NCBI RefSeq assembly: GCF_001676705.1
Contig: NZ_CP016170.1
Coordinates: 5,704,001 to 5,768,000, forward strand
Source of the DNA: Bordetella bronchialis
GTDB taxonomy: Bacteria > Pseudomonadota > Gammaproteobacteria > Burkholderiales > Burkholderiaceae_B
DNA: 64,000 nt
Direction of reading: 5' to 3'
The notes below the pieces were generated by a model that ran no database searches, was not told the origin of the DNA, and saw only the letters and a list, made by a program, of their open reading frames with translations. Position 1 is the stretch's first letter, and each line of letters begins with the position of its first letter. The position numbers were made by a program, and so were the translations under genes. Of this stretch, positions 33,759 through 42,312 are shown piece by piece.

Positions 33759-33766
<8 letters not shown>

Positions 33767-35723
33767 CCTTGGCGCTCCACTTCTTGCCCAGGTAGGCCTC
33801 CACCACGCGGGTGTCGCGGGTGATCGACGCCGGGTCGCCCACCGCCAGCACCTCGCCATGGTCCAGCACGACGAACTGGTCCACCAGGCGCACCATGGCC
33901 TGCATGGTGTGCTCGATGATGACAATGGTGACGCCGTCGCGGGACAGCGAGCGGATCACGGCCAGCACGTCGTCGACTTCGCCGTGTCCCAGGCCGGCCA
34001 GCGTTTCGTCCAGCAGCAGCAGCTCGGGCTGGCCCGCCAGGGCCCGTGCAAGCTCCATCAGCCGCAACTGGCGCGTGGTCAGCGTGGACGCGACCTGGTC
34101 GGCGCAATCGGACAGCCCCACGCGCGCCACGGCCTGGCGCGCCAGCTCGCGCGCGTGCGCCTCGTTGTGGGCCTTGACATAGGCGCCCACCTGTACGTTC
34201 TGCAGCACCGTCAGGCGCATGAAGGGCCGCATGACCTGGAAGGTGCGTCCCATGCCGGCGGCACACAGCACGTGCGGCTTGCGTCCGGCCATGTCCACGC
34301 CGTTGACGCGCACCACGCCCGTGTCGGGCCGCAGGAAGCCGTTCAGCAGGTTGAACAGCGTCGTCTTGCCGGCGCCGTTCGGGCCGATGATGCCCAGGAT
34401 CATGCCGCGCCGCACGCTGAAGCTGACGTCCCGCACCGCCTGCAAGCCGCCGAAGCGGCGCGACACGTTGCGGACTTCCAGGATGGGCTGGCTGCCCGAT
34501 GCCCCCGCGCCGGCCTGGCCCTGGGCGGCGCCGCGCCGGGCCGCGTCGGCCGCGACGGCCAGCGTGGCCGACGCTTCGGACGCAGGCAGGGTCTCGAAGG
34601 CCATCGGCACGAATGCCGCCGCGCCATCGGCCATGCCGCGCAGGGCCGAAGACATCGCATTGCCGGCGCCCGCCGGCGCCGCGTGGCCATTGCCCATGGC
34701 CGGCGCCGGGGCAGCCGTCCGGCGCTCGTCCGGCGCGCCGCCCCTGGCCGCGACAACAGGGCCGCGGCCGTCGCGCCCGGCGCGGCGGCGCAGGTAATCG
34801 CGCGTCTTCCAGAACACCCCTTCCGGCGCCGCCAGGATCACCGCGATGATGGCGATGCCCAGGATCACGCCCTGTATGCCGGGATAGCGCGCGCCGAGCT
34901 CCGCATGCAGGATCTCGCCCAGGGGCACCAGGATTGCCGCGCCGATGATGGGCCCCCACACGGTGCCCACGCCGCCGAACATCGCCACCGTCAGCGCCTG
35001 CGCCGAAACCAGCATGCCGAACACCGACACCGGCGTCACCACCAGCAGCACGACGGCGTAGAAGGCCCCGGTGGCCCCCGCGATGGCGCCGCTCAGCGCG
35101 ATCGCCTTCAGCTTCCAGCGCAAGGTGTCGATGCCCGCGGCTTCCGCCGCCGCCTCGTTCTGCTTGATGGCGATCAGCGCCATGCCGAAGCGGGTGCGCT
35201 CCACATACCGTGTCAGCACCACGAACAGGACCAGCATGCACATCGCCACCACGGTATAAAGCCCGGGGTTGGAGAACTGCATATAGGCCGCGGCGTTCTC
35301 GCGCTTCATGGGGAAGGTCACTTCCTGGTAGCCCAGCCACTCGAAGACATACAGCAGGGCCAGCGGATAGGCCAGCATCGCCAGCGCGAAGTAGTGTCCG
35401 CGCAAGCGGAACGTCGGCAGGCCCACCAGCAGGCCCGCGGCGGCGCCGATGACGGCCGACACGGGAATCATCAGCCAGGGCGTCAGGTCCAGGTAGATCT
35501 GCGCCAGCACCGTGGCATAGGCGCCCAGGCCGAAGAAGGCCGCATGGCCGAAGGACACCAGGCCCGTGTAGCCGCTCAGCATGTTCCACGACAGGCCGAA
35601 GCAGGCCCAGACCAGCACCAGCGTGAAGATCAGCTGGTGATACGTGTTGTCGACGAGCAGGGCAACGGCGGGATACCCCACCGCCAGCGCCGCCAGCCAC
35701 CAGAAATGTCGCGGCCCGTTCAT
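33759..35723 (-). CDS. LivM-LivG fusion: ABC permease joined to ATP-binding domain
   Basis: A 654-residue natural fusion. Residues 1 to ~320 are a LivM permease (about nine membrane segments, VLVWACFGLSWNMLSGYTGLVSFGHAAFFGLGAYA, GVGTVWGPIIGAAIL). An Ala/Gly/Pro-rich linker of ~100 residues follows. The last ~240 residues are a LivG ATPase with LGIIGPNGAGKTTLFN, LTTRQLRLMELARALA and LLLLDETLAGLGHGEVD. The usual LSGGxxR signature is altered to LTTRQLR. ATG 35723 overlaps the stop of livH by 4 bp. The fusion is read straight through without a stop, so it is not a sequencing break. Confidence 0.92.
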
Positions 35724-36682
35724 GTGCGCTCCGCCACGCGGCCGAACAGCCCCTGGGGACGCAGGGTCACGATCAGCAGGAAGAAAACGAAGATGGCGGC
35801 ATTCTGCAGCTGCGTGGGCAATACCAGCGCCGACAGCTGTTGCACCAGCCCAATCACCATGCCGCCCCAGAACGCGCCGGAGATACTGCCCATGCCGCCC
35901 AGCACCACGCCTGCGTACATGATGATCACGAATTCCAGGCCCACGAAGGGATGGAAGGGAAAATTGGTCGCCAGCAGGCCGCCGGACAGGGCCGTCACGC
36001 ATGTCCCCAGCGCGAAGGCGATGCGATAGGCGCGGTTGACGTCGATGCCCATGTAGGAGGCCGCCACGGGATTGTCGGCGGCGGCGCGCAGCGACTTGCC
36101 CAGGCGCGTGCGGTTGACCAGGGCGATCAGCAGCAGGATCGTCGCCGCCGAGATCAGCGCGGCGATGCCGCGGCCCTTGTTGACGAAGATACTGACGAAG
36201 TCGCCCCACAGCGGCCCGATCTCCCAGGCGCTGCTGGACACCGGCGTGCGTATGGAAACCAGCTGCGGGCCGAACAGCATCATGCCGCCGTTCTGCAGGA
36301 TAAGCGCGATGCCCAGCGTCAGGATCAGCTGCGCATAATGCCCCTCGCCTTCCAGCGCGGCGGTACGGCCGCCCGTCACACGCGAGATCAACAGCCGGTG
36401 GGCCAGATAGCCCACGGCGAACATGACCGGGACGGTCAGCAGGATGGACAGGTAGGCGCCCAAGGGCGACCCGGCCAGCACGTGGGAACCCAGGGCGATG
36501 AAGAAGAAGTAGGCGACGTACATGCCCAGCATCATCAGGTCGCCCTGGGCGAAGTTGATCACCCGCATGATCCCGAAAATCATGGCCAGCCCCACGCACA
36601 TCAGGCCGTACAGCGCGCCCACCGCCACGCCGGCCGCCAAGGCCTGTAGGAAGGCCTCCAGCTGTATCTGCAGTTCCGTCAT
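35720..36682 (-). CDS. livH: Liv-type ABC transporter permease
   Basis: A 320-residue inner-membrane permease. Characteristic stretches are GLMCVGLAMIFGIMRVINFAQGDLMMLGMYVAYF near the N terminus and FHPFVGLEFVIIMYAGVVLGGMGSISGAFWGGMVIGL near the C terminus. ATG 36682 (MTELQIQLEAF) has GAGGAGA upstream; an ATG six codons earlier lacks one. It pairs with the LivM part of the next gene. Confidence 0.92.
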   Translation of the reverse strand: MTELQIQLEAFLQALAAGVAVGALYGLMCVGLAMIFGIMRVINFAQGDLMMLGMYVAYFFFIALGSHVLAGSPLGAYLSILLTVPVMFAVGYLAHRLLISRVTGGRTAALEGEGHYAQLILTLGIALILQNGGMMLFGPQLVSIRTPVSSSAWEIGPLWGDFVSIFVNKGRGIAALISAATILLLIALVNRTRLGKSLRAAADNPVAASYMGIDVNRAYRIAFALGTCVTALSGGLLATNFPFHPFVGLEFVIIMYAGVVLGGMGSISGAFWGGMVIGLVQQLSALVLPTQLQNAAIFVFFLLIVTLRPQGLFGRVAERT

Positions 36683-37512: not shown

Positions 37513-37907
37513 GTCCGCTCCATTGCCTTCGGTGCTGCCTGGCATTTACTTATCGTATTAGACGATGATTGTATTATTGCATTCTCGATTACACAACGGG
37601 ATGGGCGGTTCGCGCCCTTGGGGTGATCCCGGAGTCCGACGGCATCCCCGGTCAGCGATGGGCGCGGTCCGTCTTGTGGAGGACCGTTCTCCGGGTGCGG
37701 GCGCGCGGAGAGTCCGCCCGCCCACCGCCACCGCGCGGCAAGGCGGTTCGCTTGCAATCAAAGCGTGGAAAAGACAGCAAAGCGAAAGAAAGACATTCCC
37801 ACCCGTCCGGCCACTGACAAACCACCCCGAAATTTGACGCAAGCCTGACGAACGGGCTGCTCTAATTGCGGCTTTTTTGTGACACGTCGCGGACATCGCC
37901 TCACCGT
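37513..37907. other. Divergent promoter region between SDR/Liv operon and GtrII-like gene
   Basis: The 395-bp region has no convincing gene. The part nearest the SDR gene is AT-rich and carries the GATTGTAT motif; the remainder is GC-rich with nothing recognised. Confidence 0.6.
37564..37584. promoter_or_regulatory. Candidate operator 3 upstream of the SDR/Liv operon
   Basis: GATGATTGTATTATTGCATT shares GATTGTATnA with the two sites at 25.66 and 25.79 kb. It lies about 50 bp upstream of the SDR start in an AT-rich stretch. This suggests both catabolic operons answer to the same regulator. Confidence 0.45.
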
Positions 37908-39398
37908 ATGCAGTCCCCCGCCTCTTCCCCGCCACGCCAGAAAGTGTTCATCGCGGCTTTGCTGCTATACGGCCTGGTGATCTACCCCATCATCCATGCG
38001 GACCGCTTCTATATCGACGACCTGGGACGCGCCCGCACGGGCTACCTGGGGTGGACTTCCGACGGCAGGCCGCTCTCCAACCTGGTGGTCGAGACGTTGA
38101 ACCTGGGCGCGCCCATCTCCGACCTGTCCCCCCTCCCCCAGCTGCTGGCGCTGCTGCTGCTCGCCTACCTGGCCGTCACGCTGGCGCGGAAATTCGGCAT
38201 ACCGGGCACCTGGCGCGCGCCGCTGATCCTGGCGCCCATGGTGGCCAGCCCTTTCTTCCTGGAAAACCTGTCGTACAAGTTCGACGTGCTGCCCATGACG
38301 CTGGCGACGGCGCTGTCCTGCCTGGCCGTCACCGCGATCCCGCGCGTGCGTTGGGGCGCCCTGCTGGGCGCGGTCGCGCTGCTCGCCACCCTGTGCCTGT
38401 ACCAGCCCGCCCTCAACGTCTTCCTGGTTTTCGCCGTGGCGGAGTTCGTCCTCGCGCAGCGAGACCTGCGGCCCATGCGCGAGCTGGCCGCGATGCTGGG
38501 CATGCGGGGCCTGCAATTGCTTTGCGCGCTGGCGGCCTACAAGGCCGTCGTCGCCGTCACCGTAAAAGGCCACTACGCCACCGCCCATGGCGCCATCGCC
38601 TCCGCCGGCGACCTGGCGGCCATCGCCCAGCGCAACCTGGCCGGCTTCTGGCGCTATGTCGTGGACATGCTGCCTGGGCTGTGGGCCAAGCCCCTGTTGT
38701 GGTTCATGGCGGGCGGCACGCTGGTGGCGCTGTACTGGGCTGTCCGCTATCTGGCGCTGTCCTGGCGTGCGGCGTCGATGCCGGGGCGTATCGCCATGGC
38801 CGCCGCCATCGCGCTGCTGCCGGCCGCCCTGTTCATCGCGCCTTGGGGACCCATGCTGGCTTTGCGGGTGCCGGTCTACGCGCCGCGCGTGGCCATCGGC
38901 TTCGGCGCGCTGGGCGCCGCCGGCCTGCTGTTCGTCTGGACCGCGCTGGACCGCCTGCGCCTGGCGCCGCGCTGGCAGGTGGCCGGGTTCGCCGTGCCGG
39001 TCTACGGCCTGCTGACCTTCTGCTTCGTGTATGGCGATTCGCTCAAGCTGCAGAAGGAATTCGAAAACCGCGTGGCGGCGCAGGTGTCTGCGGACCTCAG
39101 CCGCCTGGGCGCGCAGCACCGCATCACGGAATATGCCTTGCAAGGCAGCCTGGGGCATTCGGTGGTGGTCCGGCACACCATCCGCAAGTATCCGCTGATC
39201 GCCACGCTGGTCCCGGTGCACCTGACGGAAGGCTGGGGCTGGGCCTACGAGGAACTGCGGCTCTTCGGGGTGGATACGGCACACGAAGCGTCGGCGCCCC
39301 GCGCGGCGCCGCAAACGCAGGCGGTGTCCGTGGCGCGCGACTACCGGGTCTTCCTGGACGGCGATATCGCTATCGTGTCCTTTGCGCCGGCGTCCTGA
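37908..39398 (+). CDS. GtrII-like glucosyltransferase, polytopic membrane protein
   Basis: A 496-residue membrane protein with ten or so hydrophobic segments. The N-terminal loop ADRFYIDDLGRARTGYLGWTSDGRPLS, just after the first membrane segment, matches the acidic DDxGR motif of the Glucos_trans_II family. Members such as GtrII of Shigella phage SfII move glucose from undecaprenyl phosphate onto O-antigen. The usual partners gtrA (flippase) and gtrB (glucosyl-lipid synthase) are not adjacent. ATG 37908 is chosen over a TTG at 37866. It is convergent with the GHKL-nuclease gene (80-bp gap). Confidence 0.75.
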   Translation: MQSPASSPPRQKVFIAALLLYGLVIYPIIHADRFYIDDLGRARTGYLGWTSDGRPLSNLVVETLNLGAPISDLSPLPQLLALLLLAYLAVTLARKFGIPGTWRAPLILAPMVASPFFLENLSYKFDVLPMTLATALSCLAVTAIPRVRWGALLGAVALLATLCLYQPALNVFLVFAVAEFVLAQRDLRPMRELAAMLGMRGLQLLCALAAYKAVVAVTVKGHYATAHGAIASAGDLAAIAQRNLAGFWRYVVDMLPGLWAKPLLWFMAGGTLVALYWAVRYLALSWRAASMPGRIAMAAAIALLPAALFIAPWGPMLALRVPVYAPRVAIGFGALGAAGLLFVWTALDRLRLAPRWQVAGFAVPVYGLLTFCFVYGDSLKLQKEFENRVAAQVSADLSRLGAQHRITEYALQGSLGHSVVVRHTIRKYPLIATLVPVHLTEGWGWAYEELRLFGVDTAHEASAPRAAPQTQAVSVARDYRVFLDGDIAIVSFAPAS

Positions 39399-39445: not shown

Positions 39446-39479
39446 AAACGCCGACCGCGTGCACCGGGCACCTGCGTTT
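39446..39479 (-). terminator. Possible bidirectional hairpin between convergent genes
   Basis: AAACGC (39446-39451) pairs with GCGTTT (39474-39479), enclosing GTGC/GCAC. It overlaps the GHKL-nuclease stop codon and has only short T-runs, so it is a weak terminator candidate. Confidence 0.3.
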
Positions 39480-41529
39480 AATTGGTTGGAAGACCGAGCT
39501 TGTCAAAAAACGCCCGATTCCGCTCTCGTGCACCGTTCAGCAGGCGGTCATAGGACAACACCTCGATGTAGGCGCGGTAATTGTCGTTGTATCCAAAATA
39601 ACCCTGGCAATCACTCGTCGCCTTGAGCTGCGCCATTTTGCAGCGCCTTTCCACTGATGGCGTGATATCGCAGATGATGTAACAGAAGCCCGGAATCTCC
39701 TCGGAACGCGGGATCGGCCGCCCGGTCGCGGTCTGAGCCTGTCCTTTTCGAATGCGGTCCAGGTAGCCAAGCGCCTGTTCGATCGGGTCTTTCTCCTCTC
39801 CCATCGCAGCATCGTTACGCATCGGGCGCTTTATCTCGACGACGACAAGGGAGGCGAGAGGCAAGCGTTGCCCTTCCGAAAAAAGCGAAGGCTCGTCGAA
39901 GACATTCAACGCAACAAGGTCGGGCTCCTTTGCCTGTCCCACTCTCACGATCGGCAACGTCGACAGCGGCCGGTCCGAGGCAAGAAAGTCATGGAATGCC
40001 AAACGTTCATCGATAAGCCATAAGTTGGCACTGTCGAACAGAACATCATTCGATGTTTTCCGCATCGGCATGATGACGTCGTGAATCAGCTCCTCCCGCG
40101 CGTACCTCCCATCATCCCGCCGCTGCACCGCCTGCTGCAAGATGTCCAGGATGATTTTTCGATGGAAGACATAGCTGGCAAGGTCCGACTTCTTGATGTC
40201 GTCCGCCTTGGACAGGTATTCGTTGAGCCGCTTGAGATAAGTTTCGGGCGTCTCGTCCGCTCCGAAATTCATGATCGAGTGGCCTTCCGCAAGCAGACTT
40301 CCCTCTATTTCGGACAGCTGTTTGTGAAGGAACAAGTCCAGGTCCTTGTCCGAAATGGAAGGATCGACGCTTAGTTTTTCATCATCGATCCTGCCGAGGA
40401 TAGGGCGATATCGCGGCGCACGCTGTGCAACGAACCTATCAACGCGTTCGCGCCCGGCTACACGGCTTTCCTTCAGATAGTGCGCGAGAAAACTCTTGGA
40501 CGATTCCAGGACTGCCGACCGGATGTCGGCCAACCCCAGGTCGGTCGCCTCGAACAAGTCAGCGCTGATCTCGTCGATGTCGAGCCCGATCCGTTCCGCA
40601 CGTACGTGCTGGTCCAGGAATGGCGAAGTCATATAGCAGGCATAGACGAAAGCGCCACCATCCTCGACGATACGCCCGTGCAGACCAGCGATCTTGCCGA
40701 CGATACTTTCTTTCTTCACGACTTTGCCAGCCGCACACCACGCAATAAACGGTTCTCTTGTCTCGGCAGCCTTGAGTTTCAAGTGCGTGACCTCGAAGGC
40801 GTGTCCCTTGATGGTCAACGATTGCCGTTGAGCCGACGAGAACATGTACTGTTCGTATACGTCATCCAGCGAAATTGCCTCATCCTGGTCCAGCACCTTG
40901 ATACGCGGTGCACCACCATCTCGCACGAAATACCACAGACAGTGCTCGAACAAATCGTTGGCAATCGTTCGCGCCGTCTTAGGCGCTCGGTCCCGATACT
41001 CCTTCCTGAACCCCTGCAAGCAAACTTCGGTTTGCCGTCCATTAACGCCCGATGGCGCGTCTGCCAGCGTGACTCCGTCGACTCCTTTAGCCACGGTAAA
41101 ACTGAACGCCCGCCGGAGAAGCACGTTGCTCGTCCCGTAAAAGTCGCTGACTACTCGAACCGAATCGAATGCCTTCAGCCACAGAAGACGCCCGACGCCG
41201 CGGCAGCCTTCGGCAGCCTTGAATGCGGAATCGAGCGTCTGGAAGGACTGCAGGTTCGCGTCGTCGAATCCGCAGCCGTTATCGCGGACTTTGAAGCCCA
41301 TGATAGGTTCTTGTGGCGGTGCACCTCGTCGCCCTTGTGCGTCCAGGAGCATCGGCTGCTGCGGAACACGGAGGATATCAACGACTATCTCGCCATCAGC
41401 GGGTTGCAGGCCGGATGCCGCGACGGCCTGGATCGAATTAACGACGGCCTCGAACAAGGGCAAGAGTCCGTGACTGCGGGGCAGTGGCGTGTTTCGCAAC
41501 CGCCCGGCGAGGTCGGTGTTCATGCTCAT
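39478..41529 (-). CDS. GHKL ATPase fused to a PD-(D/E)XK-like nuclease domain; candidate defence or DNA-processing protein
   Basis: A 683-residue protein of no family I can name. The N terminus is a GHKL (HSP90/MutL/gyrase-B/MORC-like) ATP-binding fold: N-box LFEAVVNS with Glu27 and Asn31, G1 box VRDNGCGF (Asp83, Gly85, Gly87), and lid motif CRGVGRLLWLKAF (109-121). The middle ~350 residues are mixed helix/strand with no match recognised. Near the C terminus Asp537 (EPDLVALNV) and Glu565-x-Lys567 (VVVEIKRP) have the spacing of a PD-(D/E)XK nuclease, followed by an EQALGYLDRI helix. ATG 41529 has AAAGGA upstream. Base composition is visibly less GC-rich than both neighbours, suggesting transfer. 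A LexA-like box sits 49 bp before the start. ATP-gated DNA cleavage is an inference. Confidence 0.8.
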   Translation of the reverse strand: MSMNTDLAGRLRNTPLPRSHGLLPLFEAVVNSIQAVAASGLQPADGEIVVDILRVPQQPMLLDAQGRRGAPPQEPIMGFKVRDNGCGFDDANLQSFQTLDSAFKAAEGCRGVGRLLWLKAFDSVRVVSDFYGTSNVLLRRAFSFTVAKGVDGVTLADAPSGVNGRQTEVCLQGFRKEYRDRAPKTARTIANDLFEHCLWYFVRDGGAPRIKVLDQDEAISLDDVYEQYMFSSAQRQSLTIKGHAFEVTHLKLKAAETREPFIAWCAAGKVVKKESIVGKIAGLHGRIVEDGGAFVYACYMTSPFLDQHVRAERIGLDIDEISADLFEATDLGLADIRSAVLESSKSFLAHYLKESRVAGRERVDRFVAQRAPRYRPILGRIDDEKLSVDPSISDKDLDLFLHKQLSEIEGSLLAEGHSIMNFGADETPETYLKRLNEYLSKADDIKKSDLASYVFHRKIILDILQQAVQRRDDGRYAREELIHDVIMPMRKTSNDVLFDSANLWLIDERLAFHDFLASDRPLSTLPIVRVGQAKEPDLVALNVFDEPSLFSEGQRLPLASLVVVEIKRPMRNDAAMGEEKDPIEQALGYLDRIRKGQAQTATGRPIPRSEEIPGFCYIICDITPSVERRCKMAQLKATSDCQGYFGYNDNYRAYIEVLSYDRLLNGARERNRAFFDKLGLPTN

Positions 41530-41577: not shown

Positions 41578-41593
41578 TTGTACGTTTATACAG
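41578..41593 (-). promoter_or_regulatory. LexA/SOS-box-like site at the GHKL-nuclease promoter
   Basis: On the gene's strand the site reads CTGTATAAACGTACAA: CTGT, eight bases, ACAA. The E. coli-type consensus is CTGT-N8-ACAG, so one base differs in the conserved arms. It overlaps a plausible -10 (TACAAT) lying 17 bp after GTGTCA (4 of 6 to TTGACA). Repression by LexA and induction by DNA damage would follow (inference). Confidence 0.55.
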
Positions 41594-41716: not shown

Positions 41717-42181
41717 CTATCGGCGAACCGGCACGATGCCCGGACTTCCCAGGGGGGGTTCCGCTGGCGCCGCCACCTGGATGCGCTGTCCGGCCTGTTC
41801 CAGCACCACGCCGGCGCGCTCCACGCTGGACAAGGTGACGCCGTCCACGATCGATTGCCCGACGCGATAGGCGCGCGGTTCGCCGCCGTCTATCGCCAGG
41901 ATGGCGGCGCCGTGCGTTCCCGCCGATATCAGTCCCAGCACGCTTACCTTGACTGGCGCCGCCGACGTCCCGAACCAGCTTGCCACGGCGGCGGTGTCGC
42001 CGCTGGCCGGCCGCGCCGCGTCCAGCATGGGCGGCAGGGCGCGGGCCGGCGGGGCCAGCAGCACGGCGCCCCAGGCGCCCACGCCGGCGGCCAGGACCAG
42101 GACCACGGCATGACGCGCGGCGCGGGCGGGATCGATACGTAGCGGCATGTAACGCCAGGCCGGGCGGAGAGAAATGGACAT
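41717..42181 (-). CDS. gspC: Type II secretion protein GspC (inner-membrane clamp)
   Basis: A short GspC of about 154 residues with one N-terminal membrane segment (AVVLVLAAGVGAWGAVLLA). A homology-region domain follows (VSVLGLISAGTHGAAILAIDGGEPRAYRVGQSIVDGVTLSSVERAGVVLEQAG) that contacts the N0 domain of the secretin GspD. There is no C-terminal PDZ or coiled-coil domain, as in other short betaproteobacterial forms. It is transcribed away from gspG. The start is uncertain: ATG 42181 (MSISLRPAW), 42148 or an upstream codon at 42286 are all possible, and none has a strong ribosome site. Confidence 0.82.
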   Translation of the reverse strand: MSISLRPAWRYMPLRIDPARAARHAVVLVLAAGVGAWGAVLLAPPARALPPMLDAARPASGDTAAVASWFGTSAAPVKVSVLGLISAGTHGAAILAIDGGEPRAYRVGQSIVDGVTLSSVERAGVVLEQAGQRIQVAAPAEPPLGSPGIVPVRR

Positions 42182-42312
42182 ATCGCTGTCATTCGGACCC
42201 ACGATGATAGGGCCCGCATATGACAGAACTCCTAACTTGTTGTGACAGCGAAACGCAAGGCGCCCCGCCTCCCGGCCAGCCCGCAACAGGACCGGAACCG
42301 AGGATGATTCAC

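Follow-up and report, generated by a model that had tools for sequence, protein, structure and literature searches.

A GHKL ATPase, an S5 domain and a C-terminal restriction-fold domain carrying an E-D-ExK signature were brought together under the name paraMORC3 in an account that describes the family as wide but sporadic, some of its members standing alone, chiefly in proteobacteria and Bacteroidetes, and that proposes a role in restriction-modification (R-M) or alongside unlinked R-M systems (Iyer, Abhiman, and Aravind, 2008; PMC2292703). VcSduA from V. cholerae is reported to be a Shedu protein with an N-terminal GHKL ATPase and a C-terminal PD-(D/E)XK nuclease; it was placed in Shedu type I-D, after a cited reclassification, and roughly 1.2% of genomes are reported to carry a homologue (Adams et al., 2025; PMC12137116). 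According to the same report, VcSduA shields E. coli from Drexlerviridae and V. cholerae from phage X29, and either E27A or K557A abolishes its anti-phage activity. Here we analyze a 64,000-nucleotide stretch of Bordetella bronchialis DNA (contig NZ_CP016170.1, positions 5,704,001 to 5,768,000; the window), which encodes a 683-residue protein, P0001. P0001 is very probably a stand-alone paraMORC3/GHKL-Shedu anti-phage nuclease of the VcSduA type. What was observed in support of this reading is the domain layout, the invariance of the catalytic residues, models of both folds, and a mobile family whose context is partly defence-rich.

Architecture and proposed working of P0001

The gene and the parts of its product are arranged as follows.

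39478..41529, minus strand: intact open reading frame with an ATG start, stop codon included, for the 683-residue paraMORC3/GHKL-Shedu protein
40474..41529, minus strand: residues 1–352, GHKL ATP-binding module and S5-type domain (E27, N31, D83, G85, G87, G108, G113, R114), from the model
40123..40473, minus strand: residues 353–469, mostly helical linker, from DSSP of the model
39481..40122, minus strand: residues 470–683, PD-(D/E)XK nuclease domain related to Shedu SduA_C (E479, D537, E565, K567, Q585), from profile and model

An earlier reading of the window from its letters alone (the original prediction) had described one 683-residue, two-domain protein, and the intact frame, with the quoted motifs at the residues given, bears this out. 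A homologue search, in which the 7991 candidates sharing most words were scored, returned 2009 proteins at E ≤ 1e-3. Alignment of P0001 with 43 homologues (44 rows, identity down to 24%) places its start in agreement with the family start (consensus MSMxTNLxGRL) and leaves E27, N31, D83, G85, G87, G108, G111, G113, R114, E479, D537, E565, and K567 invariant, as anticipated for the ATP site (Glu27/Asn31) and the nuclease core (D537, E565-x-K567). The predicted DNGCGF and GVGR motifs hold in part: D83, G85, G87, G111, G113, and R114 are conserved, as are N84 and F88 (at least 90%), but C86 and the lid residue V112 are not among the conserved columns. The catalytic lysine, K567 in P0001, lies at positions 542–571 across the alignment rows.

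Residues 1–352 are modelled as a GHKL plus S5 ATPase module, covered in VIA-align comparisons by the ATPase modules of SMCHD1, Hsp90, and MORC2/3 (the S5 call is by fold only). The C-terminal model has a helix-strands-helix-strand core with a predicted local distance difference test (pLDDT) score of 68.7; it is nuclease-like, in line with the restriction-endonuclease-like fold that had been expected. Residues 470–683 align with Shedu SduA_C/DUF4263 (hhalign Prob 96.0, E 4.3e-9, from a single comparison and not from searching a database), and the top four chains in VIA-align with the C-terminal model are Shedu proteins, tied with the nickase N.BspD6I. Shedu emerged only through VIA-align, Foldseek with the same model returning nothing at E ≤ 0.001, and the N-terminal half of P0001 has no profile match to Shedu (Prob 0.1). 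None of the 44 family members matches PF14082 (Shedu) as a single sequence at E ≤ 0.1; the homologue at locus L047 gives E 0.15 and 12.7 bits, where the cut-off is 27. Since no PF14082 match exceeds the gathering score, the protein is filed under paraMORC3, whose motifs and folds it shows in sequence and model, and its kinship to Shedu is one of profile and fold.

P0001 itself has no match in Pfam (E ≤ 1), PADLOC (E ≤ 1), NCBIfam or PHROGs, and thus profile-based annotation misses it; sequence and profile searches of the PDB gave no relevant match. The Tiamat TmtA profile of PADLOC does not match P0001 at E ≤ 1 and matches one of the 44 family members (E 0.0027).

The trigger, substrate, dimerisation and phage restriction of P0001 are inferred here by analogy. 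On the pattern of GHKL proteins and of VcSduA, the nuclease is probably gated by a dimer clamp that shuts when ATP binds. Two subunits would dimerise through the N-terminal GHKL/S5 module upon binding ATP, and the middle parts of the dimer would clamp round DNA or a phage-made DNA structure. Closure of the clamp, or ATP hydrolysis involving E27, would then license the C-terminal PD-(D/E)XK core (D537, E565, K567) to cut phage DNA, with the host spared. In E. coli SduA, DNA ends are described as being sensed via an N-terminal clamp (review, PMC12904381); the GHKL/S5 module of P0001 would stand in place of that clamp. The same nuclease could cut host DNA too, and Shedu systems are described as toxic on heterologous expression (PMC12904381), as would suit abortive infection or anti-plasmid action rather than direct cutting of phage DNA. 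VcSduA cultures, however, were protected at every multiplicity of infection tested, which its authors read as direct restriction (PMC12137116), and we regard an abortive or anti-plasmid mode as unlikely.

Spread, genomic context and acquisition

Homologues occur across many phyla. Those considered here come from 39 loci on genome contigs, 58 plasmid records, 48 of them with a match spanning 80% or more of the query, one phage record and one viral contig; loci carry L-numbers, and plasmid and phage records H-numbers. Two loci, L039 (C-terminal fragment only) and L037 (cut by a contig end), were excluded from protein counts. The L039 fragment (L039:9959-10687) retains the nuclease part of the family, with the ATPase part not in frame, and is perhaps a decayed copy.

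Of these plasmid and phage records (59 in all), twelve, mostly high-ranked, were inspected (H1–H5, H9, H11, H13–H16, and H21), H13 being unannotated. Known defence genes lie in the same stretch in seven of the 11 annotated records: CBASS-like genes (H1), type I R-M (H2), type I R-M with a separate Shedu gene (H3), an LlaJI-type enzyme (H4), SIR2, R-M, and SAVED (H9), AbiE (H11), and Abi (H14). An integrase gene is nearby in H15, H16, and H21, and H5 shows neither a defence gene nor an integrase. Among genomes of the order of Burkholderia genome G001, a match was found in 8 of 300 and a full-length one in 4 of 300, the four including G001 itself and one copy with an internal stop. In the tree, a Rhodocyclaceae homologue (L026) is sister to a Verrucomicrobiaceae one (L027) with support 100/100. 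The loci and records inspected do not share one conserved housekeeping context, the arrangement that would have spoken against the original prediction. The spread is patchy, copies are borne by plasmids and phage, and the context is partly defence-rich; the pattern is that of a mobile defence gene.

In six loci (L011, L013, L014, L017, L021, and L026) hsdS and the homologue gene share 4 nt at the hsdS stop, the fetched flank contains type I hsd genes in 14 of 49 loci, and Methylase_S (HsdS) is the commonest Pfam family of neighbours (8 of 106 scanned among 139 open reading frames, as a raw count). Together with the R-M or unlinked R-M role suggested by Iyer et al. (PMC2292703), these observations are what one would expect of an accessory module of type I R-M, a GHKL ATPase/nuclease aiding HsdRMS, whose solo copies use R-M systems elsewhere in the genome. 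Against this, no type I hsd gene was seen in the fetched flank of the other 35 loci, although some contigs are short. An R-M neighbour is scattered rather than clustered on the tree (13 labelled rows, 10 changes needed, 113 of 500 shuffles as low), and a single gene, that of VcSduA, suffices to protect E. coli (PMC12137116). An accessory role in type I R-M is improbable.

Several homologues were observed in settings of their own. On a Vibrio fluvialis plasmid (L040:10625-14019), a type I R-M operon ends in an ordinary Shedu gene (SduA_C, 90.8 bits), followed by the GHKL-Shedu homologue. Among the best 120 of 2532 matches, proteins 86–100% identical to the V. fluvialis homologue occur in Vibrio, Aeromonas, Klebsiella and Proteus, among others; many Vibrio copies of this group lie on contigs of roughly 100 kb, perhaps a sign of a single mobile element. 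In Acinetobacter johnsonii (L041:12001-15200) a DUF3800 gene overlapped by the homologue may be its partner, and CBASS-like genes lie a few kilobases off. In phage vB_RanS_PJN03 (L045:2485-4509) it lies beside an integrase gene, and its annotation as N-acetylmuramoyl-L-alanine amidase looks wrong. DNA of a Salinivibrio homologue found no match in E. coli genomes, though one listed homologue protein is named E. coli.

In the window, the flanking genes are as follows.

37866..39398, plus strand: GtrII-like glucosyltransferase gene (PF14264, E 1e-26)
41717..42286, minus strand: gspC-like gene for a type II secretion system (T2SS) protein C-like product (PF11356, 28.3 bits, cut-off 27)
from 42220 on, plus strand: remaining gsp genes, from the domain scan

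The P0001 gene has its own 187-bp upstream gap, with the gspC-like gene on the same strand beyond. On the gsp side, the Pfam scan finds domains of T2SS proteins C, G, H, K, and L, and the setting between a GtrII-like gene and a gsp operon is thus as first described. Farther neighbours are a short-chain dehydrogenase and a branched-chain amino acid transporter, and no defence gene was seen among the scanned neighbours in the window. A PADLOC mad3 match 3 kb off (33759-36599) is in fact the ATPase of the branched-chain amino acid transporter. At 56.8% G+C, compared with 68.6% for the window, the gene is the lowest in G+C of the window, and all 15 of the lowest 1-kb windows (100-base steps) overlap it. 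No insertion scar was revealed by a test for flanking direct repeats (the longest common stretch is 10 bases, chance-level for GC-rich DNA), and no empty site was identified by a GtrII-based locus comparison, which matched 3 of 399 genomes (best 45%). As had been proposed, and with the low G+C confirmed, the gene was likely acquired horizontally.

A LexA-operator-like box before the gene

LexA operators are of the CTGTN8ACAG type; this form was used here together with sites read in the genomes of homologues. Sites just before the LexA DNA-binding domain are CTGTATAAAAATACAG in the L036 genome, CTGTATAAAAATACAA and CTGTATGGAAAAACAG in the L034 genome, and CTGTATTTTTATCCAG in the L001 genome. 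The best match to the L036 site on both strands of the window lies before the P0001 gene.

41578..41593, minus strand, 64 to 49 bases before the ATG: LexA-operator-like box CTGTATAAACGTACAA

This box differs from CTGTATAAAAATACAG at three positions (13 of 16 bases match), and the next best site in the window, on either strand, at four. Two of the three closest relatives with upstream DNA have a box at nearly the same distance, L001 at −63 (CTGTATAAAACCACAT, 13 of 16) and L036 at −67 (CTGTATAAAAATACAC, 15 of 16); the third, L034, has none. CTGT-starting sites within three mismatches of CTGTATAAAAATACAG occur at four places in 1.06 Mb (L001–L083), two of which are the L001 and L036 promoters. 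L036 has a second, one-mismatch consensus site at −204, and among the 46 other loci checked such a site occurs in L015 and L042. A Fisher test against these 46 loci gives 0.002, an overstated value since related rows are counted as independent; mononucleotide shuffles give a match in 39–57 of 1000.

Several observations weigh against reading the box as a LexA operator. Allowing one mismatch, CTGTN8ACAG occurs in the window no more often than expected (12 sites against 12.38), the final consensus G is absent from all three boxes, their rows are related (columns of the upstream alignment average 63% identity), and the L034 gene is without a box though its genome has such sites at lexA. With the bare consensus unenriched, the box is of interest only because of where it lies, its presence in relatives and its resemblance to sites in the lexA regions of hosts; it could alternatively be part of a TATAAA-type promoter. 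From these features we infer a LexA operator, and this copy of the gene may be SOS-inducible. That a beta-proteobacterial branch has placed an ATP-gated Shedu nuclease in the SOS regulon, repressed by LexA and switched on by DNA damage, including that caused by phage, is a tentative proposal to which we give slightly less than an even chance. Among the papers listed by a text search, none had a title or abstract opening on SOS control of Shedu, a weak negative.

The original prediction had offered phage defence or DNA repair. The box in the window, L001, and L036 may point to a link with damage, and the GHKL-plus-nuclease layout recalls MutL (PMC2292703), so that P0001 might be a repair or damage-response nuclease under SOS control, working like MutL, with phage defence secondary. 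SOS control is equally compatible with defence, however; P0001 matches no Pfam family at E ≤ 1, including the MutL N- and C-terminal domains, and the spread of its family is sporadic and partly plasmid- or phage-borne, with defence genes nearby in several loci. We consider a repair function very unlikely, and the defence half of that proposal is the one supported, including by the context of homologues.

The possible damage-response control site before this copy is unexpected. If the box is real, it would make it easy to examine whether a DNA-cutting defence is armed by SOS induction, and would raise the question of what keeps the nuclease off the damaged host chromosome; were the SOS reading true, damage-triggered expression would form a layer over ATP gating of the nuclease.

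Comparison with known systems

P0001 differs from the Shedu SduA proteins of B. cereus (8ti8, 8ti9) and E. coli (8ps4, 8ps5) in having another N-terminal regulatory part, and from the MutL and MORC ATPases in its PD-(D/E)XK-type nuclease domain and in the lack of a MutL family match. Compared with VcSduA by published description, it is likewise one protein with an N-terminal GHKL ATPase and a C-terminal PD-(D/E)XK nuclease; the catalytic E27 bears the same number in both, and the catalytic lysine is K557 in VcSduA and K567 in P0001. Their settings are unlike: VcSduA shares a genomic island with GrwAB, whereas the P0001 gene has GtrII on one side and gsp genes on the other, and no adjoining defence gene was seen. 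Compared with paraMORC3 by family description, P0001 has the GHKL domain with ATP-binding motifs, S5 by fold, and the restriction-endonuclease fold with E479, D537, and E565-x-K567, and its family is patchy with a stand-alone subset; no tested feature differs. A LexA-like box is not mentioned in the consulted part of the paraMORC3 account (PMC2292703).

The original prediction knew of no named defence system with exactly this architecture, a claim that does not hold: it is described for paraMORC3 (PMC2292703), in print since 2008, and VcSduA (PMC12137116) is a tested counterpart from 2025. With P0001, the tested GHKL-Shedu architecture is extended to one protein without a match in Pfam, NCBIfam, PADLOC or PHROGs. 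Because architecture and function are already in print, it adds a member to a known family and not a new architecture.
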